A stretch of 64,000 nt of DNA, from the NCBI GenBank assembly GCA_000697475.1, contig JNEU01001003.1, positions 62,001-126,000 on the forward strand. The letters are read 5' to 3'. The notes beneath the pieces were generated by a model. The model had not been told where the DNA came from. It ran no database searches and saw only the letters and a program-made list of their open reading frames with translations. This document shows, in pieces, positions 3,310 through 64,000 of this stretch. Origin of the DNA: Lichtheimia corymbifera B2541. Its lineage: Eukaryota > Mucoromycota > Mucoromycetes > Mucorales > Lichtheimiaceae. Every line of letters starts with the position of its first letter. Within the stretch, counting starts at the first letter, position 1. A program made the position numbers and the translations under genes.

Positions 3310-4588
3310 ATGTTTCTTGTCTTTAACGCCGGCTCATCTAGTCTCAAGTTCAAGCTCTTTGACAGCGACTCCCTTGAAGAAAAAGGAAAAGGAGCCTGTT
3401 CTGAGATTGGGAGTGCTCAATCTACATTTTCACTCAACCAGCAAGAGCCTAAAGAGTGTCAATTAGAGTCGCACGAGGATGCATTAAAAACAGTATTGCA
3501 AGAACTGAAAGATGCACATGTGATTGAGGATGATAAGATGATCAAAGCTATTGGTCATCGGGTCGTTCATGGCGGTGATCGTAGAGAGCCTGTCAAAGTA
3601 ACTTCAAAGACGCTCAAGCAACTTGATGAATTGACAGCACTTGCACCATTGCATAATCATCGTGCTGTCACTGTAATGGAAGCAAGCCTGAAACGAATGC
3701 CCGATTGTGATAATTATGCGTACTTTGATACTATGTTCCACGCCACCTTGCCCAAGCATATCTATACGTATCCGCTACCACGTCAACATGCCCTTGACAA
3801 CGCTGTGCGTAAATGGGGATTCCATGGATTATCACATCAATATGTCTCTGATCGCGCAGCTAAGTTTCTTGGCAAACCCCTGCAAAACAGCAAGCTCATC
3901 ACCTTGCACTTGGGTAATGGAAGCAGTGCTTGTGCCATCGCCAATGGTGAAAGCATCGATACCACGATGGGCCTAACTCCCGTATCAGGCAAGTGACACA
4001 CAGACAATTCAATATCACCATATGCATAAAAACCACATGCGCTGACAACAATGTGAACACTACTTAGGGCTACCTGGTGGAACACGGTCAGGCGACATTG
4101 ATCCATCAGCGGTTTTTCATCTGGTGAGCCATCCCGCTGACCCAAAGCCTGGAGGTGGCGTCGAATTAGCCAAGGCTGAACATGTCTTAAACAAGGAGAG
4201 TGGATTCAAGGGCTTATGTGGTCTCACTCATATGGGCGATATTGCTACCAAGGCTGAACACAATGATGAACCCGCCAAACTCACATTCGATCTTTTTGTC
4301 AACCGTATCCAAAACTTTATTGGTTCTTACTATATATTGCTTGAAGGTTGTGATGTCATTGTCTTTACGGGTGGTATTGGCGAGCACTCAGCACCCCTCA
4401 GACAACATGTTTGTGAAAAGTTGAAATGCATCGGATGCAAGATTGATATGGAAAAGAACAATCACGCAGATACCACCAAGGATAAGGTTGTTGATATCAC
4501 TGCACGCGATTCATCCATTCGTGTGCTAGTCATTGAGACGAATGAAGAACTTCAAATTGCAAGGCTTATGAAGGAGCACCATCCATAG
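3310..4588 (+). CDS. acetate kinase, 399 aa, two exons
   Basis: Acetate kinase interconverts acetate + ATP and acetyl phosphate + ADP. Exon 1 is 3310-3988 and exon 2 is 4068-4588, giving 399 aa, the usual family length. The start MFLVFNAGSSSLKFKLF is exactly the N-terminal phosphate-binding motif of the ASKHA fold. Other signatures are HRVVHGGD, HNHRAV, FDTMFHATLP, GFHGLSHQYVS, LHLGNGSSACAI, TPVSG joined across the intron to LPGGTRSGDIDPS, and GGIGEHS near the C terminus. The intron has a GC donor (GCAAGT at 3989) and an ordinary AG acceptor. In-frame non-ATG extension upstream is unnecessary. In fungi the partner is usually phosphoketolase (Xfp); no such gene is in the window. All key motifs are present, so it should be active. 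Confidence 0.95.
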
Positions 4589-16082: not shown

Positions 16083-17739
16083 TCATTGTTGACGAGATGA
16101 GGTGGAAGGTTTTGACCAAAGGTATGATGAAGCCCATTGAGTGAAATTGGTGAAAATGTTAGAGGATGATGATGATGATGATGATGCATTGTTGGTGTTG
16201 CCAGTGCTTCGTTGATCCATATTTCGATGCATGTCAACCACGGTAGAAGAATGCTGACTAGTTGAACGTGACATGGATGGCTCAGTAGCATCAATTGTAC
16301 ATGGTTCGCTCACTGGTAATGCCTTTCCAAAGCCCTGTTGACCTGGAGGAGAAAGAAAGTGATTCATGGTAGGAGGAGAAGTCGCTGTTGTAGGAGAGGA
16401 TGACATTTGGTTGTTGTCTTCTTCTTCATCGTGGGTATCCCAATCATCGTCATCATCGAATCCATAATCATCTTCTTCATCGTAGTCAATGGGTGGTTGA
16501 TGATTATATACGCAGGATTGCCCTACCCATTGAATAGCTTGTGGAGGACTTGTGCCACTGGGATGCTGTCGGGATCGAATCTCAATTTCCTCATTCTCCG
16601 AAGAAGATGATCCATCATCGTTGTCGTGGTCGTCATTCGCATGGTCTATCGTCCAACGATGGTTGTGCTCTGCTCGAAATGATGAAGATGATGAAGAAAG
16701 TGATGACACATCGTCCGTTTCTTGTTCAGATTGTGAGCTTGTTTTGAGTCGTGTGGGTGCAATCTTTTTGATAGACGATCGTGGTACTGATGATTGTGAT
16801 AAATGGTTGCTATCATCGTCATCCTCGGTATATAAATAAGAGTGATTGTCCTCATCGTCGTCGTCTCCTTCTTCATGATCATTGTCTTCGTCATCCATAT
16901 TTTCAAATCGTGCTCGGCGTCCAGACTTTTGGATAAAAGATGAAGATGAAGATGATGGTTCGCCTGTGCTCAATGCAACACATTGCTCAACATATTGATT
17001 GAATCGAAGTTTTGGTTGTCGATGAGTCGCAACAATTGAAGGTGAAAAGACCTTGAGTTTCTTGTTTGCTTCAGTGAGTGACATATTGGATGACGATGTC
17101 GTTGTTGTAGCGGATGCCGGTTCTTCTTCTTCGTCGTCGTCGTGGATCATGGTTGTTTTTGGTGCAGAAGCCTTTGCTGCTGGTGTTTCATTGACGAGAT
17201 TGGGTAATTCGATAGCTGAACGTCGTAATAAATCCGATGTTGTCACCTTTTTCAAAGCAGATTTGAGCGGTGGTTGTTCAGGCCGAGGAGATTGAGTTTG
17301 TCCTCTTGTTGTTCGGGTCATGAGGCCTAAAGTATCTTCCGTCTTTGATATCTTGGGTTGGGCATAGCGATCCTCTTCATCAATGTTCTTGATAACAGTA
17401 TGCAATGGACCATACAGCCATGTCACATCACTATCCTTCAGCCTAAAATAATGGTATGAGTGGTATAATTCCCTTATCATGATGTCACCTCACTTACCAG
17501 TTAAGTGTCTCGGGGCTCACAGTCTTGAGATTGTATTTATGCTTAGCCCACGTCCGCCATGATGCATTCTCAAGTCGTATCCCGTTAACAACCTCCTTCT
17601 TTTGCTTGGTCATAACACGCCATGAAGCTGCGAGATCCATCTCGTCAAAGCGATAGGACAAGTAATCGACACACATTTCCGGGTCTCGCACATGTCGACT
17701 CCGTGACAGGTTGTCATCCGCATGGTTCTTGGTCAGCAT
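16083..17739 (-). CDS. Reg1-like regulatory subunit of protein phosphatase 1, 533 aa
   Basis: Two exons (17739-17498, 17442-16083) with a 55-nt intron. Residues about 22-95 form the fungal Reg1/AreA-type N-terminal domain, with MCVDYLSYRFDEMDLAASW, RLENASWRTWAK, NLKTVSPETLNW and, across the splice, LKDSDVTWLYGPL. At residues 225-235 KLRFNQYVEQC matches the Reg1-type PP1 docking site (RVxF-like plus VEQC). In yeast, Reg1 brings Glc7 to Snf1/Mig1 to maintain glucose repression, so a role in carbon signalling is inferred. The rest is acidic and Ser-rich, with low-complexity Asp/Glu and Ser runs. A start at 17739 immediately follows a TTTCAG, so a 5'-UTR intron is likely. Confidence 0.85.
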
Positions 17740-19306: not shown

Positions 19307-20204
19307 CGTGCAGGATAAAGAGCGGAAGAGTGATATAGCACGCACCCCCATTATTTCAATCGCTGCTCGAAAGATCACACTGACACCCACGAAAAGCCAC
19401 CCATTCGCTTTCCTTATGCAACCACCACTCGAATGTAATGCGATTGCCCACCTTGATGAGTAACAATCAAAGATACTTTTAAATAACGTGATAGTCTAAT
19501 AAAGGATCATCCTTTGACTTTTATCTTTCTTCATACTTCAGGTACTCCTGCTCTTGAACATCTGGAAAATGCTACGCTAGAGGACGTGCCATATTACCTT
19601 GACTTTTGATCCACCATTACGGACGCAACACGTGATACATGACTTGAGAGATGTTGCAGTTGAATGTAGATCCAATCCTATTGTAGGTACTTGTTCCATT
19701 TTATAATCATCCATCATCAACCACAGCAAACACTTTATCGTTCCTTGTGAGCATAAGATTTCTCACACCCACTGCGCACAATAAAGAGATGTTGTCGCCA
19801 CCCATTATACTTCTACTGAATTTCTGCGCTCACAAGCAACAGACCCGACTGATAAATGGTTGCATGACATGATAAAGTGATGGTCTGCATATACCAGGAT
19901 TAAATCTGAAGAGCCTAAGTGTATTACAGTCTTCGTAGTATACATTGGCCAAACTAGGGCTATGTGATAAACATCTATCAACGATTGTACACCCACTTAT
20001 TACAAATGGGTTTGTCGTTGTCAGGCAATTCTGATCAAACGTATGCGTGTATGTCTGGCGTATTCGAGTGCTGTAATCACCAATGCTCAATCACCATCCC
20101 ATTTGTGCTACAACCTGTCAAGGGCGTGTGTGTAACCACCACGTGCCATTACACTCAGTCCTTCACCTTGATTATAGACACCATCCATTAGAATGAAGCA
20201 GGTT
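19307..20204. other. intergenic, no gene seen
   Basis: This contains the U2AF1 promoter and an anonymous AT-rich stretch leading into the left repeat block. Open frames are short and without motifs. Confidence 0.45.
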
Positions 20205-20400
20205 CATCACGCTTACATCATATGAAAACTCATATCTCAATGTTATAGATTGCTCACCTCGATCGTGAAACTTGGTTCACATGATTCCTTTAGACACGCC
20301 GAATACCTCTTTCCTCTATTAAAGGACCCCAGCACGCTTCATTGTAAAGTTTTAAGATATGACCATCTTTATGTTTTCATTATGCTGCAAGCGTGATAGC
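20205..20400. repeat. collapsed copy of the long hairpin unit
   Basis: The outer left arm (CATCACGCTTACATCATATG at 20205) is followed after about 50 bp by the inner part of the right arm (GATCGTGAAACTTG at 20261) and its distal end (CATTGTAAAGTTTTAAGATA, then ATGCTGCAAGCGTGAT). The centre and most of the left arm of the unit are missing. Similar collapsed copies lie in the right block at about 59570-59760 and 59905-60090. Confidence 0.65.
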
Positions 20401-20439
20401 CATCGTCTGATGACCGCGTCCAAAGTTCTCACAATGAAG

Positions 20440-21430
20440 CATGTGGTTGTTACTTGAATGTATTTGATCAGCGTGTCAAAGAGCACCTTCTGACCAAATT
20501 TCGCGATGGTGGTGGACAATCGCGGGGGCGTGCACTATACACCCTATTAGCGTTCCATCCGGTTCGTAAAAACATCATAATGAAACCTGTGATTTTTAAA
20601 TGAATGGAGTTGATCAGCATGTCCCAGCGAACTTGCTTACCAAGTTTCAAGTTTGGGAAGTGGAATCCCAGGATAATTCATACTATTTGACTTTTTCATG
20701 AATCCGGCGCTTTCCCAAATTCCGTCCACCATAGTCAATCCCACGTTAAATCCTCCCATTCAAAATCTTTAAATGAAGTGTGGGTTCTTTATTAAGACAA
20801 AGTTGATGAGAATGTCCAAGAGCACCTTGTGTGAAAGTTTCAAGTTTGTGGTGGGCAATCTCGAGATTATGGGCCGTTCATCCTATATATATTCCCGTCC
20901 ATTCATCGTCGGACGCTCCCGTTTTATTTCTTACAGTTAAGCCTGCGACTTTTATTTGAATGGAGCTGATCAGCATGTCGAAGCCCAGCGCACTGACCAA
21001 ATTTCACGATGGTGGTGGACAATCGCGGGGGTGTCCGCTATGCACCCTACTTGCGTTCCGTCGGTCCATCATCTCTCCTATATTTGGACCGCCCGATTCA
21101 TAAAACATCATAATGAAGCATACGGTTTTTAAATGAATGGAGTTGATCAGCATGTTCCAGAGAACCTGCTTACCAAGTTTCAAGTTCAAGGTGGGCAATC
21201 CCAAGGTAAAACATACTAAATGGCATTTCAATGAACCCGGACGGGGTACGGAATTTCGTCAGTCATAGTATACCCAATATTACACCCTCCCTTTTAGAAT
21301 CTTTAAATGAAGTGTGGGTTCTTTATTAATACAAAGTTGATCAGCGTGTCCAGAAGCATATTGTGTGGAAGTTTCAGCTTCGAGAGAGGTAGTCTCAAGG
21401 TCAAGTGTTAGTTTTATAATGTTCAAGGGT
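20440..21430 (+). repeat. six direct units with ~85-bp core (left block, array 1)
   Basis: Cores recognised by (A/G)AGTTGATCAGCATGT followed by AGAGCACCTTxTGACCAAGTTTCA occur at about 20463, 20609, 20800, 20964, 21139 and 21335. Spacing is 146-196 bp. Each is preceded by an AATGAA(G/A)...TTTTTAAATGAATGG or TTCTTTATTAATACAAAG lead and followed by GGTGGGCAATC(C/T)CAAG. Linkers diverge. The last four correspond one-to-one with the four units at 56800-57440. No protein is encoded convincingly. Confidence 0.8.
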
Positions 21431-22640
21431 GTGTCTGACAAGTCAACCTATTCTAATTTCCACCTCTTCCACACCCAGCCTCTTCCCTCTTCCCAAGCAC
21501 GACTGTTTCCCCATTCAAGCACAACTACAACCTGCGAACAATTGTCCTGCTTCAACCCGTCATGTCCATTCTGCAGTTGTCTTGTAATCCTATTGCCTTT
21601 GACTGAATGCGCATATACATGGCGTGTACACAACCTTCTTGTCACTCCACTACAACACCCGCGTTCCTTGACACTGCACGCGGTCTTGCACATTCCTCTG
21701 CTACAATCAACGTAAACCAACGTAACAGCATTCATTCCAGCAGTTGCTATTAGCAAAGTCTTCACGGCATTGTCTCAAACAGCGTTCACAGCCTTGTCAC
21801 TCTACTGCAACACACGCTCTTGCACACTTCTCTACACGACCAAACATAACAGCAGTTGTTATCCCATTGTCTCAAGTTACTTGCATCAACCTGCCTTACA
21901 GCCGTGTTTACATGGACAGCAAGTAGCCATCGTATAGAAGCAGCTTTATTTACGTGTATCAACTTGCTTTAATACATACGGATCCCTATGGATGTTGCCA
22001 TAACAGCCATCAACAACTACTACTGCGTGATACAAACATTCTTCATCTGGTTGAGCTGCGATAGAAAGTGAACAAGCAAGTGATTGACCAACTGTCAGCA
22101 GGAAAAGAAAGCATGTCAGCAAGCGACCCCATGAGCTCTTTGTATCAACATACCGGGCGTGCAATGGTTATCGATGGATGGATGGGTGCAATCCAGCTCA
22201 GTGGTGGATGATCCTGAAACGTGGGCTTGGTTACTTTGTACATCTTCAGCAGGAAGGGTGGATTATGTTGCATGGATACGGCTGAGGATGATGGTGGATT
22301 GGATGGCATGGATGAGACGGCTTGTATCTTTGACCAAAGTCAGTGTGCCTCTATGGATGATACGCACAGCAGCTAGTTTGCAACCATGGATGAAGATGTC
22401 TACGATGGTAGCAACCAATAGGATACCCACCGACTCTATTAGTTGGTTTCTGGGATGAGAGAGAGGATAGGAATTAGACAGTCGGAATGCGAGATTGGAT
22501 TACGTACATCATTATATCGAGACACTTTCTTTCTTTTTTGCCATATTACATTCGTTAATAAAGCTCTCTTGTTCACAAGTGGTAATTTTCAGCGGGTTGT
22601 ACACAGGTTTAAATAGACGCTTGTATGTTCAAAGATAATA
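21430..22640. repeat. module I, left copy (~1.2 kb)
   Basis: A segment with internal sub-repeats (ACAACACxCGCTCTTGCACxCTTCTCT, AACGTAACAGCA) follows the four direct units. From 21890 onward it is about 98% identical to 57826 onward, while its first part matches the right copy only loosely. The short plus-strand frame ILHLVELRLKVNKQVIDQ is echoed in module II as ILHFVELREKMTKQVIDQ, so a degenerate gene is possible. No known domain is recognised. Confidence 0.7.
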
Positions 22641-23080
22641 AACCTCTAGTAATGATACCCAACAATAATGCTTGTTACAAACGTTTGACCCACTGTAAGC
22701 CTCAGTGATTATGTTTAACGAGTGGACTATGATACAATATGACAAGAGTACATACATATGCAGCACATATGACGACTACTACCAGCATGCGCTATTTTGT
22801 GTGTATGACCTTATGTGGGTACAATCTTTGGAGACAAGCAATGCCATCGCCCCTACCCTTCTTTCACACAAATGCTCTCAGATGCACTAACTATTTTGAA
22901 TTGTCATCCATACCATGGTTCCATATGCTCTATCACACGCGAACCTTACTTACAGGGGCAGGAACCATTATGCAATCTCCACCAATAAGATTGAATCTAC
23001 AAGCCCCGCTCTCTCTGCTTAATTGCTCAAACGAGTCCGTTTTGCATCTTTGGTTCTAGAATAAGTGAGGCGATTGACAA
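22640..23080. repeat. segment shared with the right block, single-copy within each block
   Basis: This links module I to the hairpin array and is nearly identical to 58580-59020, with a few single-base and indel differences. Open frames on the plus strand are broken differently in the two copies by small indels (for example near 22800 versus 58760), which argues against a protein product. Confidence 0.65.
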
Positions 23081-24165
23081 TCAACAAAGATCACTTTCCA
23101 TATAGCATCACGCTTACAGCATAGTAAAAACATAAAGACAGTCATATCTCCAAACTTTTCAATGAAGCGTGAGGTCTTCAATAAAGCAAAGTTGCTTGCC
23201 GTGGCCAATAGGATCTTATGTGCAAGTTTCACGATCTAGCTCGCCAATCCTAGATTTCGCGATGTCACCACCAGCTAAAGTAGATCGAGGGTCGACCAAA
23301 AATATTTTGGCTGGTGGCGACCTTGCGGAATCTAGGATTGGCGAGCTAGATCGTGAAACTTCTACACAAGGTGCGCTACACCCCGACGAGCAATATTGTT
23401 CGATTGAAGACCCCATGTTTCATTGTAAAGTTTAGAGATACAGGCACCTTTAAGTTTTACATATGCTGAAAGAGTGATGCTATATGGTGAGTGGTATTTG
23501 TTCATTGCCAAGTATCATGCAAAGGAGCTGTGTTGCACAAAGAAGTCCCTCTGCATCTTCGGCTCTATCGGGGTCTACCTACTTGACAATGAACAAAGAC
23601 CACTTGTCATATAGCATCATGGTTACAGCATATGTAAAAACGTGAAAGTGAATTTATCTCAAAACTTTACAATGAAACGTGGGGTCTTCAATCGAGTAAA
23701 GTTGCTCGTCGGGGTAAAGCGCACCTTGGGTGCAAGTTTCACGATCAAGGTCCCCAATCTCAAATTCACCCAATGTCACCACCAGCCTCGTCGAAAAAAA
23801 ATTCGAGGTCGACCAGATCTACTTTGGCTGGTGGTGACATTGGGTGAATCTGAGATCGGCCACGACGATCGTGAAACTTCTACACAAGGTGCGCTACACC
23901 CCGACGAGCAATATTGTTCAATTGAAGACCCCATGTTTCATTGTAAAGTTTGGAGATACAGGCACCTTTATGTTTTACATATGCTAAAAGCGTAGTACTA
24001 TATGAAATGTGGTCTTTGTTAATTGTCAAGTAGGTAGACCCTGATAGAGCCGAAGATGCAGACGGACTTCTTTGTGCAACACAGCTCATTTGCATGATAC
24101 TTGACAATGAACAAATACCACATGCCATGTATCATTACGCTTTCAGCATATGTAAAAACATAAAG
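23080..24165. repeat. alternating long inverted-repeat array, left copy
   Basis: Two complete type-A hairpins are present. In the first, arms 23226-23275 and 23309-23359 match with about four mismatches in 50, around a 33-nt loop, and weaker pairing extends outward. The second has arms ending at 23786 and restarting at 23826. Between and after them are type-B loops (~65 nt) flanked by inverted copies of GATGCTATATGACAAGTGG...TTCATTG at about 23475-23625 and 23995-24140. The B loop at 23515-23580 is in opposite orientation to that at 24040-24105. The arms contain the same core as the direct units. Confidence 0.85.
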
Positions 24166-24800
24166 ATGTCTGTTTCTCCAAATCTCCATAGTGATGATAG
24201 AGGCTTTGTGAGTACGATATTGATCAGCATGACCGAGAGAACCTCCTGACCAAGTTTCGACGTCCCCACCAGCAATATCGGCGCGCACGGCCGTACACCC
24301 TATTTATGTTACCATCCTTTCGTAGTCTCTCCTATATTGAAGGTTTTCATAATGAACTCTGGGGACTTTATGAGAACGAAATTGCTCGGCGTGGTCGAAA
24401 GGATATTGTGTGAAAGTTTCAGGTTCTAGGTGGGCAATCTCGGGGAGCAGGAGCGTCTACCCTACTTTTCTCTATATTTGGGCTGGCCGGCATTCAAAAT
24501 GTTCATAATGAACCGTGCGATTTTTAAATGAATGAAGTTGATCAGCATGTGCGAGAGTACCTTCTGACCAAGTTTCAAGTGCGAAATGGGGAATCCCAAG
24601 AAACTACATACTAAATGACTTTCTCATAAATCCGGCGGTTTCCCAATTTCCATCCGTCATAGTAAACCCCACATTATGCTCTCCCTTTCGAAATTTTCAA
24701 ATGAAGTGTGGGTTCTTTGTTAATACAAAGTTGTTCAGCATCACCTAGAGCATATTGTGTGAAAGTTTGAGGTCCGAGACAGGCAATCCCAATATCATGC
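24165..24800 (+). repeat. four direct core units (left block, array 2)
   Basis: Cores are at about 24217, 24379, 24537 and 24731 (spacing 162, 158, 194 bp). They match the right-block units at 61155, 61318, 61475 and 61668 in both sequence and spacing. The second core reads TTGCTCGGCGTGGTCG, intermediate between the direct-unit and hairpin versions of the core. Confidence 0.8.
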
Positions 24801-25770
24801 ATTGATATCAGTGTATATGGATATGTCTGACTCTGCTGACAGATTTAATTTCCACCTCTTCCACTCCCACTTTATTTCGCCCTTCTTCCCATTCTCAACC
24901 GTTGATGCATTCAAGTACAACTACAACCGCGAACGATTGTGCTGCTTCGCCCCATCATGTCGATCCTGCAACTGCCTTGATCCGATTGTCTTATGACTGA
25001 ATGGCAACTCCATGGCGTGGACACTGCCTACTACAACACACGCGTCTCTTAACACTACACGCTCTCTTGCACGCTCCTTTACGACAATCAAACGTAACAG
25101 CATTCATTCCAGCAGTTGCTGTTAGCAATGTCTTTGCGCCAGTGTATCAAACAGCGTTCACAGCCTTGTCACTCTACTACAACACACGCTCTTGCACGCT
25201 TCTCTGTTTCAACCGAACGTAGCAGTTGTTGATACCATCAAACTCTCTACTCCATTGTCTCGAGTTACTTGCAGCAGCTTGCCTTGCAGCCATTCCACAT
25301 GGACAACAGATAGCCATTGTATAGACCCAGTTTTAATTACACATACCAACATGATATAATACATACGGTATCCTATGGATGATGCCATATCAGCCATCAA
25401 CCTCACTTCAAGTTACAAGCATTCTCCACTTTGTTGAACTGCGAGAGAAAATGACCAAGCAAGTGATTGACCAACAGCTGAATAAAGGAAACAATCACTG
25501 GAGTTCTTTCTATCAACATTTTGAGACTTGCAATGGTTATGGATGGACGGGTGGATGCATCAAAGACAGTGATAGGTGATTCTGAAATTCGTGTTGGTTA
25601 CTTGGTACCTCGTCAGCAGCAAGGATCGACCATGTTACGTGGATGCTGCAGAGGATGACCATGGATGAGAGGGCTTATATCTTGAAGAATGAGAGTCAAG
25701 GCAGACACAGCAATCATAAGCACTGCAATCTATGGTCCATCCGTACACGTTTCCCATCTACTCTCAGTCA
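24800..25770. repeat. module II, left copy
   Basis: Diverged homologue of module I: the same order of sub-sequences (ATTTCCACCTCTTCCAC, ACAACTACAACC(G/T)CGAACGATTG, CACATGGACAACAGATAGCC, CAAGCAAGTGATTGACCAAC) can be followed. It lies after four direct units, exactly as module I does, so the left block is itself a two-fold tandem of (four units + module). A Cys-rich plus-strand reading (LCCFAPSCRSCNCL) is shared with module I and the right copy. Confidence 0.65.
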
Positions 25771-55092: not shown

Positions 55093-56216
55093 ATGGGCAA
55101 ACACAAGAATGCTGGTCGCTCCCTGTTGGAGAGCTTCATGTACTCAAATGGCGACATTGGTGAAAACGGTAAGCTATAATGACTACAGGGGCAATAGGGG
55201 CTGTGTATAATATGGGGAGATCGTGCACTCAATTACGTAAATGAATATAGGTGAAGAGGAGCAAGTGCCACTTCCAGATTCCATGGTATGCGTCTTTATT
55301 CGATATATACAATGAATGCAACTCACGTCTATGTATGTCATTATCATAGAGAGCATCAACATTATTGGAGCAAATCGGCAAAGAACGATCGTGGACCGAT
55401 GATCAAATAGACCGTGACCTCAATATATTGGATGACAATCGATTATACTTTGTAAGGATCTGGATGATGGGTTCATCGTTTCTTTGGCATTGATATTGAC
55501 TCTTCAATGGATCATTTAGGTGCGTGATCTCCGTGCATTATCCAACCATAGCTGGACAGTACGTGTGGAACGATGAGGATGTTCTTGTGTTACTCGCGAT
55601 CTGAACAATATCCCGTAATAGGTGATTGAATTGCTGCCACTCGTTCGGGATCTTTTGCGAACAGCTGTCGACCCTGACTGGGAAAGACGTTATTACAGTA
55701 AGTATCAGCAGGTACCATGAAGGTGACGTATATATACTAATAATCATCATGTTAGAAATCAAGGATAAAGAAAAGAAGAAAAAGTACAAGAAGGACAAGA
55801 AGAAAAAGTACAAGAAGAATGATTTCAGCAACAACACAATGCAGCTTGGTGAACCTGTGATCGCAGACGATGACCGCCAAGAAAGTGATAGCTCTTCTTC
55901 ATCCTCCTCATCATCATCAACCAGTGATCACCAAGACGAGAAGCAACAGAAATCCTCTGGATCAGCAGCAACTGCATTCACTGGACGACCTATCAAAGCT
56001 GTGAGCTCTAGCAGAATCCATGTACGCACCACGGCGGGGAAAATCTATGAATGCGATCGTCGTTGTCCTCACAAAGGTGTTGACCTGGCAACATGGGGCC
56101 AAGTATTGGGCAACAAACTCATTTGTACGAAGCACAATTGGCAGTTTGATCTCGATGGTTCTGGTCTCGGTCCAAAAGGGCGAACTGTGCATCCATGCAG
56201 CGTCAATGATTGGTAG
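55093..56216 (+). CDS. Rieske [2Fe-2S] domain protein with novel N terminus, 262 aa
   Basis: Six exons: 55093-55168, 55251-55285, 55350-55451, 55520-55558, 55622-55697 and 55756-56216, all in phase. The C-terminal ~80 residues are a Rieske domain: CPHKG (first CxH), 17 residues, then CTKHNWQFDLDG (CxxH), the spacing of Rieske ferredoxins and Rieske-type oxygenase/hydrolase domains. The cluster would have two Cys and two His ligands. The first ~120 residues (MGKHKNAGRSLLESF, SWTDDQIDRDLNILDDNRLYF, VRDLRALSNHSWTVIELLPLVRDLL) look helical, perhaps SAM-like, and I do not recognise them. A lysine/tyrosine-rich KKKKYKKDKKKKYKK tract and a Ser-run separate the two parts. No catalytic oxygenase domain follows, so the protein ends within the Rieske fold. 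Function unknown; probably electron transfer. Confidence 0.8.
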
Positions 56217-56799
56217 AGGCGTGATTGAAAGAATAGCAACTACAAAAGCCATGGTTTTGAATAAATTGGTTACGTTTGGATGTGTACTTTGGATGCGGCA
56301 TTAGTGCAAATGGAATATCATTTTAGTGGAAAACAACGAATGCCATGCCTTGTAAATCTCTTTAAATCAATAGGCTAGCGGCCGAGGTTGCTCGTTGGAT
56401 AGCTTAATACCATCTATGGAGTAATGATCTTACAAGAAGCTTACACATTTACGCAATCACATTACAGCCTCGTCGTATTCCTATTTACAGAAACCTGCAA
56501 TCCTTTGCATTATCCATATTTACAATAAGAGACTACCTGTGCAATAAACTGTCCGACCCGATGACCAATGCTCTCGGCAGCCAACACATTAGTTTAACAT
56601 ACGTGTACCATATTTCGCATCCACAACTGCTGCCCAATCCACTGCTTGTGAATGATCCTCCTGCTTCAACCCAGATTACCCCTCCTTCCATTGTCTTGGT
56701 TCGAGATAATTTGATTGAGGAACCCAGTATTAATAAGCATATCAATTCGTAACAGGTACACTACCTTGTATCTGCCAATCTTTACACATCTCTCCCACA
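56217..56799. other. intergenic, no gene seen
   Basis: The 3' flank of the Rieske gene leads into the right repeat block. Open frames of 60-70 codons on both strands at 56530-56750 have no recognisable domain and are mirror images of each other. Confidence 0.45.
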
Positions 56800-57440
56800 T
56801 TACATCCTCCCATTCAAAATTTTCATTATGAAGCGTGGAGACTTTACGAGAACGAAGTTGATCAGCGTGTCTGAAAGCACCTTGTGTAAAAGTTTCAGGT
56901 ACGAGAGAGGGAATCTCAAGGTCCTGGGTCGTCCACCCTATATATATATTCCTGTCCGTGCATTGTCGGACGCTCCCGTTTTATTTCTCACAATGAAGCC
57001 TGCGACTTTTATTTGAATGGATTTGATCAGCATGTCGAAGAGCACCTTCTGACCAAGTTTCACGATGGAGGTAGGCAACCGCGGGGGCTATACATCCTAC
57101 TTGCATTCCGTTCATCCATCATCTCTCCTATATTTGGGCTGCCCGATTCGTAAAACATCATAATGAAACATGCAATTTTAAAATGAATGGAGTTGATCAG
57201 CATGACTCAGAGAACCTTCTTACCAAATTTCAAGTTGAAGTTGGGGAATCCCAAGATTATGCATACTAAATGGCATTTCAATGAATCCGGGCGGGGTGCG
57301 GAATTTCCGTCGATCATAGCAAACCCCACATTACACCCTCCCATTCAAAATCTTTGAATGAACCATGGGTTCTTTATTAATACAAAGTTGATCAGCATGA
57401 CCAAGAGCATATTGTGTGCAATGTTGAGGTTGGAGAGAGG
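56800..57440 (+). repeat. four direct core units (right block, array 1)
   Basis: Cores are at about 56857, 57022, 57191 and 57388, with spacing 165, 169 and 197 bp, matching the left units at 20800, 20964, 21139 and 21335. This is the left edge of the duplication on this side: similarity begins near TCCTCCCATTCAAAAT at 56805, versus 20750 on the left. Confidence 0.8.
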
Positions 57441-58580
57441 CGATCTCAATATATGGATTAATTTACAGTGTGCATGTATTTGTCTGACAGCGCCTGACCG
57501 ATTTATTTCCAGCTCTTCCACTCCCAACCTCTTGCCTCCTTCCTCCCATTCCCAACCGTTGCCCCATTCAACTACAACTACCACCTGCGAACGATTGCCT
57601 TGCTTCAATCCACCATGACCATGCTACAACTATCTTGATCTGATTGTCTTTGACTTAATGGCAACTGCATGGCGTGTGCACCCCACTACAACACCTACAT
57701 TTCCTGACACTGCACGCTCTCTCTTGCACCTCTTCCGCCACAACCAATCGTAAACAGCGTTCATTCCAGCAGTTGCTACTTACACCATTATCTCAAACAA
57801 CATTCTTTATTTGCAGCAGCATGCCTTACAGCCGTGTTTACATGGACAGCAAGTAGCCATCGTATAGAAGCAGCTTTATTTACGTGTATCAACTTGCTTT
57901 AATACATACGGATCCCTATGGATGTTGCCATAACAGCCATCAACAACTACTACTGCGTGATACAAGCATTCTTCATCTGGTTGAGCTGCGATTGAAAGTG
58001 AACAAGCAAGTGATTGACCAACTGTCAGCAGGAAAAGAAAGCATGTCAGCAAGCGACCCCATGAGCTCTTTGTATCAACATACCGGGCGTGCAATGGTTA
58101 TCGATGGATGGATGGGTGCAATCAAGCACAGTGGTGGATGATCCTGAAACGTGGACTTGGTTACTTTGTACATCTTCAGCAGGAAGGGTGGATTATGTTG
58201 CGTGGATACGGCTGAGGATGATGGTGGATTGGATGGCATGGATGAGACGGCTTGTATCTTTGACCAAAGTCAGTTTGCCGCCATGGATGATATTGGATGT
58301 TGGAGCCAAGGCACGCACAGCAGCTAGTTTGCAATGATGCATGAAGATGTTTACGATGGTAGCAACTAAGTAGGATACCCACCGATTCCATTAGTTGGCT
58401 TCTGGGATGAGAGAGAGGATAGGAATTAGACGGTCGGAATGCGAGATTGGATTACCTACATCATTGTATCGAGACACTCTCTTTCTTTTTTGCCATATTA
58501 CATTCGTTAATAAAGCTCTCTTGTTCACAAGTGGTAATTTTCAGCGGGTTGTACACAGGTTTAAATAGACGCTTGTTATG
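57440..58580. repeat. module I, right copy
   Basis: From 57826 to 58580 this is about 98% identical to 21890-22640; the part before 57826 is much more diverged and about as far from the left copy as the direct units are. A 20-bp insertion (ATTGGATGTTGGAGCCAAGG, near 58290) is present here but not on the left. Confidence 0.75.
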
Positions 58581-59020
58581 TTCAAAGATAATAAACCCCT
58601 AGTAATGGTACCCAACAATAATGCTTGTTACAAAAGTTTGACCCACTGTAGGTCTCAGTGATTATGTTTAACGAGTGGACTATGATACAATATGACACGA
58701 GTACATACATATGCAGCACGTATGACGACTACTACCAGCATGTGCTATTTTGTGTGTACATGACCTTATATGGGTACGATCTCTGGAGACAAGCAATGCC
58801 ATCGCCCCTACCCTTCTTTCACACAAATACTCTCGGATGCACTAACTATTTTGAATTGTCATCCATACCATGGTTCCATATGCTCTATCACACGCGAACC
58901 TTACTATAGGGGCAGGAACCATTATGCAATCTCCACCAATAAGACTGCATCTTCAAGCCCCGCTCTCTCTGCTTAATTGTACAAACAAGTCCTTTCTGCA
59001 TCTTTGGTTCTAGTATAAGT
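58580..59020. repeat. segment shared with left block
   Basis: Nearly identical to 22640-23080; see that entry. Small indels break the open frames differently in the two copies. Confidence 0.65.
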
Positions 59021-61105
59021 GAGGCGATTGACAGTGAACAAAGACCTCTTTTCATATAGCATTACGCTTAAGCATAGTAAAAACATAAAGGCAGTCATAT
59101 CTCCAAACTTTTCAATGAAGAGTGAGGTCTTCAATAGAGCAAAGTTGCTCGCCGTGGCCAACAGGATCTTGTGTGCAAGTTTCACGATCAAGGGAGCCAA
59201 TCCCAAATTTCGCAATGTCACCACCAGCCAACTTGGGTCGACCTCTTGCAACCAAAAATATTTTTTGGCCGGTGGCGACATTGGGTGAATCTGAGATTGG
59301 CCACGACGATCGTGAAACTTGCACCCAAGGTGCGCTTCACCCTGACAAGCAATTTTGTTCGATTGAAGACCCCACGTTTCATTGTAGAATTTTTAGTTAC
59401 GGGAATCTTTATGTTTTCACTATGCTATTAGCATGATGCTATATGAAAAGTGGTCTTTGTTCAGTGTAAAGAAGCTTGACCTTGATAGAGCGGAAGGTGG
59501 GCAGGGGCGTGTTTGTGTCACACAGCTCATTTGCATGATACTTCACAATGAACAAACACCACTTGTCATATAGCATCACGTTTTCAGCATATGTAAAAAC
59601 GTAAGAGTGTCTGTATGTAGGATCGGCGAGCTCGATCGTGAAACGTGATTCACAAGGTGCGCTCCACCATGACGAGCAATATTGTTCTATGAAAGAGTCC
59701 ACGCTTCATTGTAGAATTTAGAGTTGAATGTACTTTTACGTTTTTACATATGCTGTAAGCGTGATGCTATATGACAAGTGATGCTTGTTCATTGTGAAGT
59801 AGCTTGACCTTGATAGAGCGGAAGATGCACAGGGACATGCTTGTGCCACACAGGTCATTTGCATGATACTTCACAATGAACAAACATCACTTGTCATATA
59901 GCATTACGCTTTCAGCATATGCAAAAACGTAAAAGTGCCTGTATCTAGGATCGATGAGTTTGATCGTGAATCTTGATTCACAAGGTGCGCTCCACCACGA
60001 CGAGCAATATTGTTCTATGAAAGTTCCCATGTTTCATTGTAAAGTTTAGAGATAAATGCACTTTCACGTTTTTACATATGCTAAAATCATGATGCTATAT
60101 GACAAGTGGTGCTTATTCATTCTGAAGTATCATGCAAATGAGATGCGTTATACATGCACGCCCCTGTGCATCTTCCGCTCTATCAGGGTCTACCTACTTG
60201 ACAATGAACAAACACCACTTGTCATAGAGCATCATGCTTTTCAGCATATGCAAAAACTAGAAAGTGCATTTACCTCTAAACTTTACAATGAAACATGGGA
60301 CCTTTCATAGAACAATATTGGTCGTCGTGGTCGAGCGCACCTTGTCCATCATGTTTCATGATTAAACCTGCCAATCATAGATACAGGCACGTTTTACGGT
60401 TTTCCTATGGTTTAAGCGTGATGCTATATGACAAGTGGTCTTTGTTCATTGTCAAGTAGCTGGACCCTGATAGAGCCGAAGATGCAGACGGACTTCTTTG
60501 TGCAACACAGCTCATTTGCATGATACTTCACAATGAACAAACACCACTTGTCATATAGCATCATGCTTTTCAGCTTATGCAAAAACTAGAAAGTGCATTT
60601 ACCTCTAAACCTTACAATGAAACATGGGGTCTTCAATCGAACAATATTGCTCGTCGGGGTGTAGCGCACCTTGTGTAGAAGTTTCACGATCTAGCTCGCC
60701 AATCGTAGATTCCGCGATGTCACCACCAGCTAAAGTAGATCGAGGGTCGACCAAAAATATTTTGGCTGGTGGTGACATCGCGAAATCTAGGATTGACGAG
60801 CTAGATCGTGAAACTTCTACACAAGGTGCGCTACACCCAGCCGAGCATTATTGTTCGATTCAGGAACCCATGTTTCATTGTAAAGTTTAGAGATACAGGC
60901 ACCTTTATGTTTTACATATGCTGAAAGCGTGGTGCTATATGGAGAGTGGTGTTTGTTCATTGTCAAGTAAGTAGACCCCGATAGAGCCGAAGATGCAGAC
61001 GGACTCCTTTGTGCAACACAGCTCATTTGCATGATACTTCACAATGAACAAACACCACTTGTCATGTATCATCACGCTTACAGCATATGTAAAAACATAA
61101 AGATG
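59020..61105. repeat. alternating long inverted-repeat array, right copy (extended)
   Basis: The array holds about 2.1 kb versus about 1.1 kb on the left. Full type-A hairpins are centred near 59245 and 60748. In the latter, arms 60599-60732 and 60766-60900 pair closely around a 34-nt loop containing GGGTCGACC, and pairing continues outward to about 60520 and 60975. Type-B palindromes lie at about 59430-59570, 59759-59909, 60090-60240, 60419-60570 and 60930-61080; at 59759 the 43-nt arms differ at only two positions. The B loop near 60130-60195 is inverted relative to the other four. Between 59570 and 60420 three type-A units have lost their centre and part of one arm. Confidence 0.87.
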
Positions 61106-61740
61106 TCTGTTTCTTCAAATCTCCATAATGGTGTGTAGAGGCTTTATGAGAACGATATTGATCAGCATGCCGGAGAGCACCTCCTGACCAAGTTTCGAGG
61201 TCGCGGTGGGCAATATCGGCGCGCACGGCGCGTACACTCTATTTCTGTTACCATCGATTCGTCGTCTCTCCCACATTCAAGATTTTCATAATGAACTCTG
61301 GGGTCTTTATGGGAACGAAATTGCTCGGCGTGGTCGAAAGGGCGTTGTGTGAAAGTTTCAGGTTCGAGGTGGGCAATCTCGGGGAACAGGAGCGCCGACC
61401 CTACTTTATCCTACTTTTGGGCTGGCCGGCATCCAAAATGTACATAATGAACCATGCGGTTTTTAAATGAATGGAGTTGATCAGCATGTGCGAGAGTACC
61501 TTCTGACCAAGTTTCAAGTGCGAGATGGGGGATCCCAAGAAAATACATACTAATTGACTTTTTCATAAATCCGGCGCTTTCCCAATTTTCATCCGTTATC
61601 GTCAACCCCACATTATGCTCTCTCTTTCGAAATTTTCAAATGAAGTGCGAGTTCTTCATTAATACAAAGTTGTTCAGCATGTCCTAGAGCATATTGTGTG
61701 AAAATTCTAGGTTCGAGACAGGCAATCCCAATATCATGCA
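61105..61740 (+). repeat. four direct core units (right block, array 2)
   Basis: Cores are at about 61155, 61318, 61475 and 61668, with the same spacing as the left array 2. The sequence match to 24165-24800 is high but below that of module I. Confidence 0.8.
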
Positions 61741-62310
61741 TTGATATCAGTGTATATAGATATGTCTGACTGCCTGACAGATTTAATTTCCACCTCTTCC
61801 AATCCCACTTTATTTCCCTCTTCTTCCCATTCTCAACTGTTGATGCATTCAAGTACAACTACAATCTGCGAAAGATTGTGCTGCTACAACCCATCATGTC
61901 AATCCTGCAACTGCCTTGATCTGACTCTCTTTGACTGAATGTCAAGTTCAATGCCGTGTACACCCCACTTCAACACACGCGTCTCTTGACACTATACACG
62001 CTCCTTTACGACAATCAAACGTAACAGCATTCATTCGGGCAGTTGCTATTAGCAATGTCTCTGCGCCATTGTACCCAAACAGCGTTCACAGCCTTGTCAC
62101 TCTACTACTACAACACACGCTCTTGTACGCTTCTCTGTTTCAACCGAACGTAGCAGCTGTTGCTATCATCAAACTCTCTACTCCATTGTCTCAAGTTACT
62201 TGCAGCAGCTTGCCTTGGAGCCATTCCCACATGGACAACAGATAGCCATTGTATAGACCCAGTTTTATTTACGCATAGCAACATGATACAATACATACGG
62301 TATCCCTACG
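61740..62310. repeat. module II, right copy, truncated
   Basis: This matches 24800-25380. The match stops at ACATACGGTATCC, where a minisatellite begins; the remaining ~390 bp of left module II (25380-25770) are absent. Confidence 0.7.
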
Positions 62311-62456
62311 GATATGGATTATGGATTATGGATATGGATTATGGATTATGGATATGGATTATGGATATGGATTATGGATATGGATTATGGATATGGATTA
62401 TGGATATGGATTATGGATATGGATTATGGATATGGATATGGATATGGATATGGATA
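62309..62456 (+). repeat. GGATAT/GGATTAT minisatellite
   Basis: About 148 bp of alternating 6- and 7-bp units (GGATAT and GGATTAT), mostly as a 13-bp compound period, ending in pure 6-bp GGATAT repeats. Each unit is in frame for Trp/Met/Asp/Tyr-rich artefactual peptides only. It sits exactly at the right edge of the duplicated block. Confidence 0.9.
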
Positions 62457-63162
62457 TTGGTTTGGTACTTGGTATTGAACGATTTGGACATACAGTATGG
62501 GGGAAAGCTTATTCTGCTTATGCTACCATCCTGAACGATTGATGCATTCATGCCTCAGCCATTACTACGATCATCCTTTGTGCAACCTGTCAACCATATA
62601 CAACTATCAACTATCATCACCCAACTCTGTGTTTCGTGCATAATTCGCCACCATACATCAAGAGCCGTTTCACATGCGTCTTTGCACACTCAAAGGATAG
62701 ATTCTCTTCAAATCGAAGTATTTCTCCCCCTCCCAATATTAGAGCATTTCATTGTACCTCTCATTCTATCTCCTGTGAATGAAGTTTGGATTCAAGGGTC
62801 ATTTCTAAGATCCAATAATGTAAAGCGAGCATCTCCTTCCTGAATTAATCCTCATCTTGATGCATTGTATTACACAAAGATTTTAAAAGTATATCCGCCT
62901 GTGAATGCTGTGATAATACAGGAGAAAGAAGAAAGAGGAAATTTCTGATTGATTCATTGTGTCTCGAACAAAGACTGTATTTGATTGTATAACTCGACTC
63001 CCTACGACTAACAGTGTTGTGCACATGTTTTTTGTCATCACTGGATAGCTCTTGCAAGTTGATGTACAAGTTGATCTCTAGCGCGGATATCTGAGATTTG
63101 ATTAGCCCCCGCAAATACAAGCGTGTGAGTTCGCTTCTTGCATATTTACATAACCTGTCGAC
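62457..63162. other. intergenic, ETR1 promoter at right end
   Basis: No repeat-block sequence and no supported gene. Open frames under 100 codons on both strands lack motifs. Confidence 0.45.
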
Positions 63163-64000
63163 ATGGGCTTGTTATTCCGATCGTTGTTGCAACATACACA
63201 GCAAGTGAGCGGTCGCTCATTGGTGCGTCGTGCCTATTCAAGCGCGTCTTCTGACATTACGGTGAATGCCATGGTGTACGGATCGTATGGCAAGCCTTCC
63301 GAGGTCTTGAGGTGAGTGTTAACACATATACACACGCACGTGCGCGCATATGTTATTGACGTGTATATCATAGAATGCATTCGTACAAGCTTCCTGCCTT
63401 GACGTCTGATACGGTGCACGTGCGTTTTTTGGCATCTCCTATCAACCCTGCTGACATCAACCAAGTCCAAGGCGTGTATCCCCTCAAGCCTCCCTTTGAA
63501 CAGCTTGGTGAAGGTGAAAAGGTTGCCGTGGGTGGTAACGAAGGTGTCGCTGAAGTCATTGCTGTGGGTGATAACGTCAAGAACCTCAAAGTGGGCGACC
63601 AAGTAGTAATGGCTCGTAGTGGTTATGGTACATGGCGCACCCATGCTGCTGGTCCCGAAGCTGATTTCCAACCTTTGCCTGCTTCCACCAACACATCATT
63701 GATCCAAAAGGCTACCATCACTGTGAATCCTTGCACCGCTTATCGTATGCTTAAAGATTTTGTGCAACTCAAACCTGGTAAGTCAGCAGCGTATGATGGA
63801 TCATGGATTTGATAAAGTAACCCCTTTTTTATATATCCAAGGCGATTATGTCATTCAGAATGGAGGCAATAGTGCCGTGGGTCAAGCTGTCATCCAGATT
63901 GCCAAGGCTTGGGGTATCAATACTGTCAACGTGGTGCGCAATCGACCTGAAATTGAGCAGTTGCGACAAGAACTCAAGGAGTTGGGTGCTACCCATGTGG
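63163..64000 (+). CDS. ETR1: mitochondrial trans-2-enoyl-CoA/ACP reductase, 5' part
   Basis: Etr1/MECR catalyses the last step of mitochondrial fatty-acid synthesis (NADPH-dependent reduction of 2-enoyl-ACP), needed for lipoate supply. Exons: 63163-63311, 63374-63777, and 63842 to beyond the edge. The start gives [14 protein letters not shown]...RRAYSS, a basic mitochondrial presequence. The medium-chain reductase fold follows: [63 protein letters not shown] and the cofactor-binding [16 protein letters not shown]. The Tyr in VQGVYP is the family's catalytic residue. The 3' part lies outside the window. Confidence 0.92.

Follow-up and report, generated by a model that had tools for sequence, protein, structure and literature searches.

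A chain of palindromes in Lichtheimia is probably the expanded subterminal part of a foldback-type MULE transposon

Judged by sequence, the chain of long, alternating inverted repeats at 59028-61034 very probably arose by expansion of the subterminal region of a MULE transposon in Lichtheimia, one that is non-autonomous and of foldback type. Positions are those of the window, the whole 64,000-nt stretch of DNA that was analysed (C324:62001-126000); genome searches covered 34,979,012 bases in 432 contigs. The array is flanked by a Rieske-domain ORF (55626-56216) on one side and an ORF with an alcohol-dehydrogenase N-terminal domain (63360-63812) on the other, and the ten window ORFs scanned against Pfam contained host-type families only. 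The product of a 468-aa ORF (16083-17489) shares 95% identity with a protein from Lichtheimia ornata and 75% with one from L. hyalospora, which places the organism in Lichtheimia, near L. ornata, and bears out the Mucorales origin proposed in a preliminary description of this DNA.

The inverted-repeat chain exceeds chance by far. Inverted recurrence of 14-mers accounts for 49.7% of 59020-61105, a share that never exceeded 2.7% in 200 second-order random sequences. When the remainder of the 64 kb was scored in 57 stretches of 2,086 nt each, the top two reached 26% and 22% and the next 0.9%; both top stretches lie at a second array near 23-24 kb. This second copy of the repeat (20028-25691, with full palindromes at 23074-24031) was absent from the preliminary description. 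Between 58.5 and 61.6 kb, a repeat finder returned 38 inverted pairs. The longest, of 220 nt, is at 59867-60086/60239-60458 (84% complementary), and another, of 156 nt, is at 60582-60737/60758-60913 (88% complementary). Inverted matches in this region are thus not confined to lengths below 40 nt, the outcome that would have spoken against the preliminary description. The tandem period in the array is 328 nt (TRF).

Profile annotation supplied the module names: an outer segment O of ~80 nt, a box B of ~94 nt, a centre, and a spacer S of ~62-65 nt. The full palindrome P reads O-B-centre-B'-O', and the shorter q and q' contain a single box. From left to right, the units run P1 (59028-59471), S+, q, S+, q, S-, q', S+, P2 (60525-60968), S+, then O and four boxes. 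The array had been described as one arm of ~210-230 nt laid down in alternating orientation. This holds for the outer part everywhere, but two full arms of ~215 nt are present in only two of the five palindromes (59028-59471 and 60525-60968); the other three (59540-59800, 59868-60128 and 60196-60457) are shortened ~262-nt units with two outer segments and one box. For the palindrome at 59534-59806, the repeat finder reported a 75-nt stem enclosing 123 nt. Similarly, the ~34-nt loop A is indeed short in the two full units but not in the three one-box units, and the ~65-nt loop B is found throughout as a spacer but occurs in both orientations. The best example, 60599-60732 paired with 60766-60900 and extending to about 60520/60975, had been placed correctly, as 60524-60969 folds end to end, and the unit order agrees with the claim of a geometry unlike a single-hairpin MITE or a head-to-tail satellite. 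The extent given (59020..61105) captures the array, but diverged direct copies of the inner half of the arm continue to 61727, in a repeat that spans ~56.6-62.3 kb.

Comparison with 16 stretches of the ten-kilobase class and the second window copy placed the array within a repeat of ~5.5 kb. This repeat is modular, occupying 56.6-62.3 kb around the window array and 20.0-25.7 kb at the second copy. To the left of the array is a long unit U, made of boxes followed by a tail T1-T2-T3, and to the right is another U in the same orientation, an arrangement found in both window copies. In three other loci (L012, L022 and L036), outward-facing O-B-B-B-B-T arms (U) lie on both sides of the array. The annotated features of the two window copies are as follows.

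56609..56719, + strand: T1 fragment, the leftmost piece of the repeat (profile annotation)
56823..57445, + strand: four direct copies of box B (inner arm half) of the left long unit U (profile annotation; repeated genome-wide)
57453..59028, + strand: left U, tail T1-T2-T3, which tested as non-coding and abuts the first palindrome at its end
59028..59471, no strand: full palindrome P1 (O, B, centre, B', O'), arm-to-arm identity 0.786
59478..59538, + strand: spacer S (loop B of the preliminary description), similar to the final ~50 nt of T3
59540..59800, no strand: short palindrome q (O B' O'; repeat finder and profile annotation)
59805..59866, + strand: spacer S (profile annotation)
59868..60128, no strand: short palindrome q (O B' O'; profile annotation)
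60130..60190, - strand: spacer S, turning point of the short units (profile annotation)
60196..60457, no strand: short palindrome q' (O B O'), pairing with q over 220 nt
60463..60523, + strand: spacer S (profile annotation)
60525..60968, no strand: full palindrome P2, the best example of the preliminary description, arm-to-arm identity 0.876
60974..61034, + strand: spacer S (profile annotation)
61036..61727, + strand: right U, O then four diverged direct boxes B (profile annotation)
61736..62313, + strand: T1 of the right U, stopping at the start of a GGATAT-rich tandem repeat (profile annotation, TRF)
20028..20196, + strand: piece of terminal module X flanking the second copy on its left (E 4.5e-24)
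20248..25691, + strand: second copy, with boxes, T1-T2-T3, two full palindromes and spacers (23074-24097), O, boxes, T1 and part of T2

The GGATAT/GGATATGGATTAT tandem repeat (62310-62457) starts where T1 of the right U stops, and other U copies carry GGAT-rich sequence within T2. Modules like those of the window array occur in 36 non-overlapping stretches, which makes local mis-assembly an unlikely cause of the array.

The order of the modules follows rules. T3 abuts the O of P without a spacer and at a fixed position, and a pattern spanning this junction was found 30 times. The final ~50 nt of T3 resemble part of S, which suggests that S is a remnant of the T3 end. The 36 stretches contain 64 P, 28 q and 16 q', joined at 100 unit-S-unit junctions in which S is in the + orientation in 61 and in the - orientation in 39. 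S+ stands to the left of the short q in 25 of 25 cases and S- to the right of q' in 10 of 11. Head-to-tail steps comprise 15 P-S+-q and 10 q-S+-q, and there are ten turning points of the form q-S- -q'. This placement of S beside q and q' suggests that what multiplied in the short form was S together with q, in a fixed direction but with inversions. In some arrays (L044, L014, L021, L025, L033 and L035), a second palindrome type, S-T1...T1'-S' of about 0.5-0.6 kb, stands between the outer segments and replaces the short spacer.

Alternation and a two-way spacer could also arise if a molecule ending in hairpins were copied by a hairpin-primed, rolling-hairpin mechanism, the way in which linear genomes of this type replicate. 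The division of S between 61 + and 39 - junctions and the runs of short units with a turning point are compatible with such copying, as are whole palindromes of 4-5 kb with nearly identical arms. Two of these reach a contig end: C226:176604-180984 (L054), with arms 99.0% identical over 4,386 nt, and C148:139307-144272 (L050 and L055), with arms 97.9% identical over 4,968 nt. However, the constrained orientation of S beside q and q' fits head-to-tail duplication with occasional inversion, and we regard rolling-hairpin copying as very unlikely. In a third large palindrome, C174:3369-7346 (L052, L022 and L053), direct alignment gives 99.9% identity between the inner (L022) arms over 1,438 nt, and identity falls abruptly from ~100% to ~70% outside them, a drop that fits conversion or a template switch. 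As a group, the near-perfect large palindromes could reflect recent inverted duplication, conversion or, where they run to a contig end, an effect of assembly.

The repeat is abundant. The 31-nt core of O, with up to three mismatches allowed, has 1,552 matches in the whole genome (776 forward and 776 reverse; control 0). By arithmetic, the arms alone (O plus B, ~180 nt) would make up roughly 0.8% of the genome, an approximate figure in that the length after O differs at many sites. Searches with P, U and T3 gave 827, 1,099 and 459 first-look candidates, respectively, and the best 40 of each were scored; on C324 itself, T3 or U matches lie near 12.5, 84, 120 and 205 kb (among the matches listed). 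The arrays are short and scattered between ordinary genes. The 2014 L. corymbifera genome paper is reported to put repeats at only 4.7%, using Repbase/Censor (PMC4133162). A library-based repeat search may by its nature overlook a lineage-specific family.

The outer boundary of the family came from module X, which lies upstream of a partly retained O in five loci. Many X matches begin near one base, giving a sharp outer end at which the sequence starts GGGAATTACTACGCGCGCACCA. A pattern for this terminus, searched genome-wide with up to three mismatches, matched 66 times (35 forward and 31 reverse; control 0), and the terminal ~65 nt aligns across array-type copies, solo copies and a transposase-bearing element on C157. 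Convergent pairs of GGGAATTACTACG-type termini less than 10 kb apart number seven, and all were examined. Their lengths, with the agreement between flanks, are: C136, 536 bp, 9/9 (k = 9); C222, 538 bp, 6/8 (A-rich); C397, 2.4 kb, 7/8; C90, 2.8 kb, 2/8; C260, 4.3 kb, 7/8; C157, 4.6 kb, 5/8; and C200, 6.7 kb, 6/8. Flanks agree at six or more positions over 8 or 9 bp in five of the seven pairs, with a single perfect 9, whereas the maximum among 42 mismatched-flank controls was 5 at both k = 8 and k = 9 (none of 42 reached 6; two reached 6 at k = 10). Target-site duplication at these termini is likely. It is not evident at two of the seven pairs, C90 (2/8) and the transposase-bearing C157 (5/8).

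Two of the bounded elements connect the palindromes with the termini. C260:55324-59622 has both termini and 7/8 agreeing flanks with an array inside (read from 56723 on); its content (L017) is U', S+ P S+ P S+, a third P with its last O' cut, then X' and the terminus. C90:35553-38395 likewise has both termini, and its right end reads T3-O-B-centre-B'-half O' followed directly by the terminus. The structures of C260 and C90 indicate that P is the right-end subterminal palindrome and that the array is P multiplied. Neither window copy has a terminus within five mismatches of the 22-nt end, and only the X fragment (20028-20196) lies beside the second copy. Because its own termini were not detected, the window array is assigned to the family through the homology of its modules to those of bounded copies. 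Neither a young mobile copy nor an empty site was observed.

Two solo elements of 536 and 538 bp (C136:166299-166834 and C222:61010-61547) are MITE-like and consist of X ends only; that on C222 appears to sit within P-like sequence. Eleven reverse-strand terminus matches fall within 600 nt of a contig start (C14, C19, C23, C60, C90, C95, C97, C120, C215, C255 and C368); here a variant terminus, GGGAATTACTACGCCCGCACCA, faces outward close to where the contig begins. A forward match on C217 lies 390 nt from the contig end, the only end checked for a telomere repeat. A telomeric reading of the contig-end termini was dropped, as the last 214 nt of C217 contain no telomere-like repeat. These termini look as if the assembly had broken within a near-identical repeat, perhaps of a recently active MULE family.

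If the P-S units were instead an independent tandem-repeat family, a complex satellite, the MULE termini would lie nearby through insertion into arrays or by chance. The conservation of S between units, the head-to-tail P-S+-q and q-S+-q steps (15 and 10) and the lack of visible termini at most of the arrays read would suit such a satellite. Its expected form, long head-to-tail arrays of a single monomer, differs from what we found, namely short palindromic chains in both orientations, dispersed among ordinary genes. Moreover, the T3-O junction has a fixed position (the pattern spanning it was found 30 times), the compact C90 element has P at its right, next to the terminal repeat, and flanks match outside the termini that enclose the array on C260. 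We consider an independent satellite improbable.

Assignment of the transposon to a superfamily relies on domain positions. PF10551 (MULE) has nine matches in the genome, two of which lie no more than 5 kb inside a listed terminus, the other seven not being beside one. One (C157:3345-3497) falls between termini at 918 and 5522, and the other (C388:1057-1374) is upstream of a facing terminus at 3819-3840, 2.4 kb inside the only listed terminus of C388. The right terminus of C157 aligns with array-type termini over ~65 nt, in a comparison limited to the terminal ~65-90 nt. By arithmetic, 66 termini with 5 kb each cover ~0.9% of the genome, making two of nine matches unexpected (about 0.003). A MULE-type transposase domain is found within the family (C157 and C388), and the window copies have none. 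Beside the arrays themselves, no transposon family was seen among the 25 listed of 27 Pfam families matched (70 of 255 ORFs of at least 95 aa in 16 array-bearing stretches).

The mover could alternatively have belonged to another DNA-transposon superfamily, such as hAT, with the MULE domain of C157 a nested passenger. MULE target-site duplications are 8-11 bp, usually 9, and 8 bp is typical of hAT elements; four of the five agreeing flanks are best at 8 bp and one at 9 bp, and C157 has no clear duplication. Against this, none of nine hAT and none of 22 DDE_3 genome matches lies within 5 kb inside a listed terminus, compared with two of nine for MULE, and we think another superfamily unlikely.

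By structure, the family resembles foldback elements in that L012, L022 and L036 have long inverted repeats with internal direct subrepeats, and the seven convergent pairs have terminal inverted repeats. A MITE is short (under about 800 bp) and non-coding, with one terminal-repeat pair; at ~5.5 kb, the window copies are too long for this class, although the solo elements (536 and 538 bp) that share the family termini fall within its size range.

A place for the array within a genome-wide, Mutator-related transposon family with defined termini was not part of the preliminary description.

On the foldback-type MULE reading, the ancestral element, pieced together from related copies, would have consisted of a terminal repeat, X, half O, direct boxes B, T1-T2-T3, P (O B centre B' half-O') and a terminal repeat. 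MULE transposase would have mobilized such elements in trans. A unit of 'end of T3 + P', or its shortened form, may then have multiplied in both orientations to yield P-S-P-S chains, S presumably deriving from the T3 end in the process, with recombination or template switching at hairpins as candidate routes. Any host effects (dsRNA, siRNA or fragility) would be by-products.

Arm similarity shows no signature of the way in which the array grew. Partner arms of one P have a mean identity of 0.869 (61 P, 34 loci), barely closer than arms from other loci (0.855) and close to those of another P at the same locus (0.873), and 1,506 of 3,535 arms from other loci equal or surpass the own partner in similarity. 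Private gene conversion between partner arms of the small palindromes is not supported by these values.

We also considered what the repeat could encode. In the 11 copies examined, T has no codon periodicity, each reading frame of a copy contains 15-42 stops, and 17% of the indels have a length divisible by 3. A protein-coding repeat was rejected for module T by the stops in every frame, the aperiodicity and the indel lengths. The boxes B are open in at least two frames. Searches of the window for Rfam families (at gathering score) and for tRNAs gave no match. As RNA, P2 (60524-60969) folds with -304.5 kcal/mol (-306 on the other strand), relative to a shuffle mean of -112.25 (sd 5.5). The z values of -34.95 and -34.72 on the two strands bear out, for the best palindrome, the earlier expectation of a very long stem on either strand. 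Double-stranded RNA feeding RNAi, and cruciforms, would be possible consequences of the array.

This folding raises the prospect that the array is a hairpin-RNA source used by the host to silence the MULE family, which by analogy would be a natural counterpart of maize Mu killer. The extreme predicted fold on both strands would suit such a source. By one account, MuDR is silenced by an inverted duplication of MuDR parts, with a proposed hairpin RNA (PMC3440606), and dicer and argonaute genes are reported for L. corymbifera (PMC4133162). Yet the array contains neither the terminal ~65 nt nor transposase sequence, and a host-used silencing source seems highly improbable. A combined scenario is similarly far-fetched: the element's own end would have become a self-propagating chain of giant hairpins through hairpin-primed copying, which multiplies the palindrome in alternating orientation and flips the spacer, and read-through dsRNA would silence the parent MULE. 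If that were true, the same palindromes would drive both the amplification and its control. Most likely, the array is a by-product of transposon evolution with a predicted capacity for dsRNA or cruciforms.

Several known elements are comparable. Tm1 is a Mutator/foldback family of root-knot nematodes (PMC3169594). Like the Lichtheimia family, it is a MULE with composite terminal inverted repeats of variable length that contain internal motifs, and it has both MITE-like and transposase-encoding relatives (PMC3169594). Its target-site duplications are 9 bp, and the Lichtheimia flanks fit 8-9 bp; by description, however, Tm1 motifs are ~14 bp and confined to the ends, whereas Lichtheimia has a chain of ~450-bp palindromes with a conserved spacer (PMC3169594). 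Tetris of Drosophila virilis is also a non-autonomous foldback element whose subterminal repeats (TIR-220) have grown into internal satellite-like arrays (PMC4079207). The likeness is one of kind, since TIR-220 arrays run head to tail, whereas the Lichtheimia unit is itself a palindrome and its chains run both ways (PMC4079207). Plant multiple-long-TIR MULEs share tandem duplication of terminal regions and a mostly non-autonomous nature, but there each end carries a single additional terminal repeat, or the repeat stands solo; in Lichtheimia, the termini are single and the subterminal palindrome is multiplied (PMC3310237). Within Mucorales, the MULE-Mucorales clade has a 40-bp terminal repeat and a 10-bp target-site duplication (PMC6446971). 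Both are Mucorales MULEs and, compared by description, the Lichtheimia family differs in a terminus of ~65 nt and flanks of 8-9 bp (PMC6446971).

In the literature compared, we found no description of a chain of ~450-bp palindrome units with a conserved two-way spacer. Nor did we find a published report of the Lichtheimia repeat family among the titles listed, in a mostly non-subscription literature that leaves its absence unproven. The kind of element is known (Mutator/foldback), and the palindrome-chain architecture is unusual. The assignment identifies a repeat that is widespread in a 35-Mb genome (1,552 matches to the arm core), and indicates that arrays can grow by units that are palindromes from an element's end instead of head-to-tail monomers. 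With its many long, near-perfect palindromes in a fungal group that has RNAi genes, the family offers a test bed for palindrome stability, arm homogenization and transposon-derived dsRNA.
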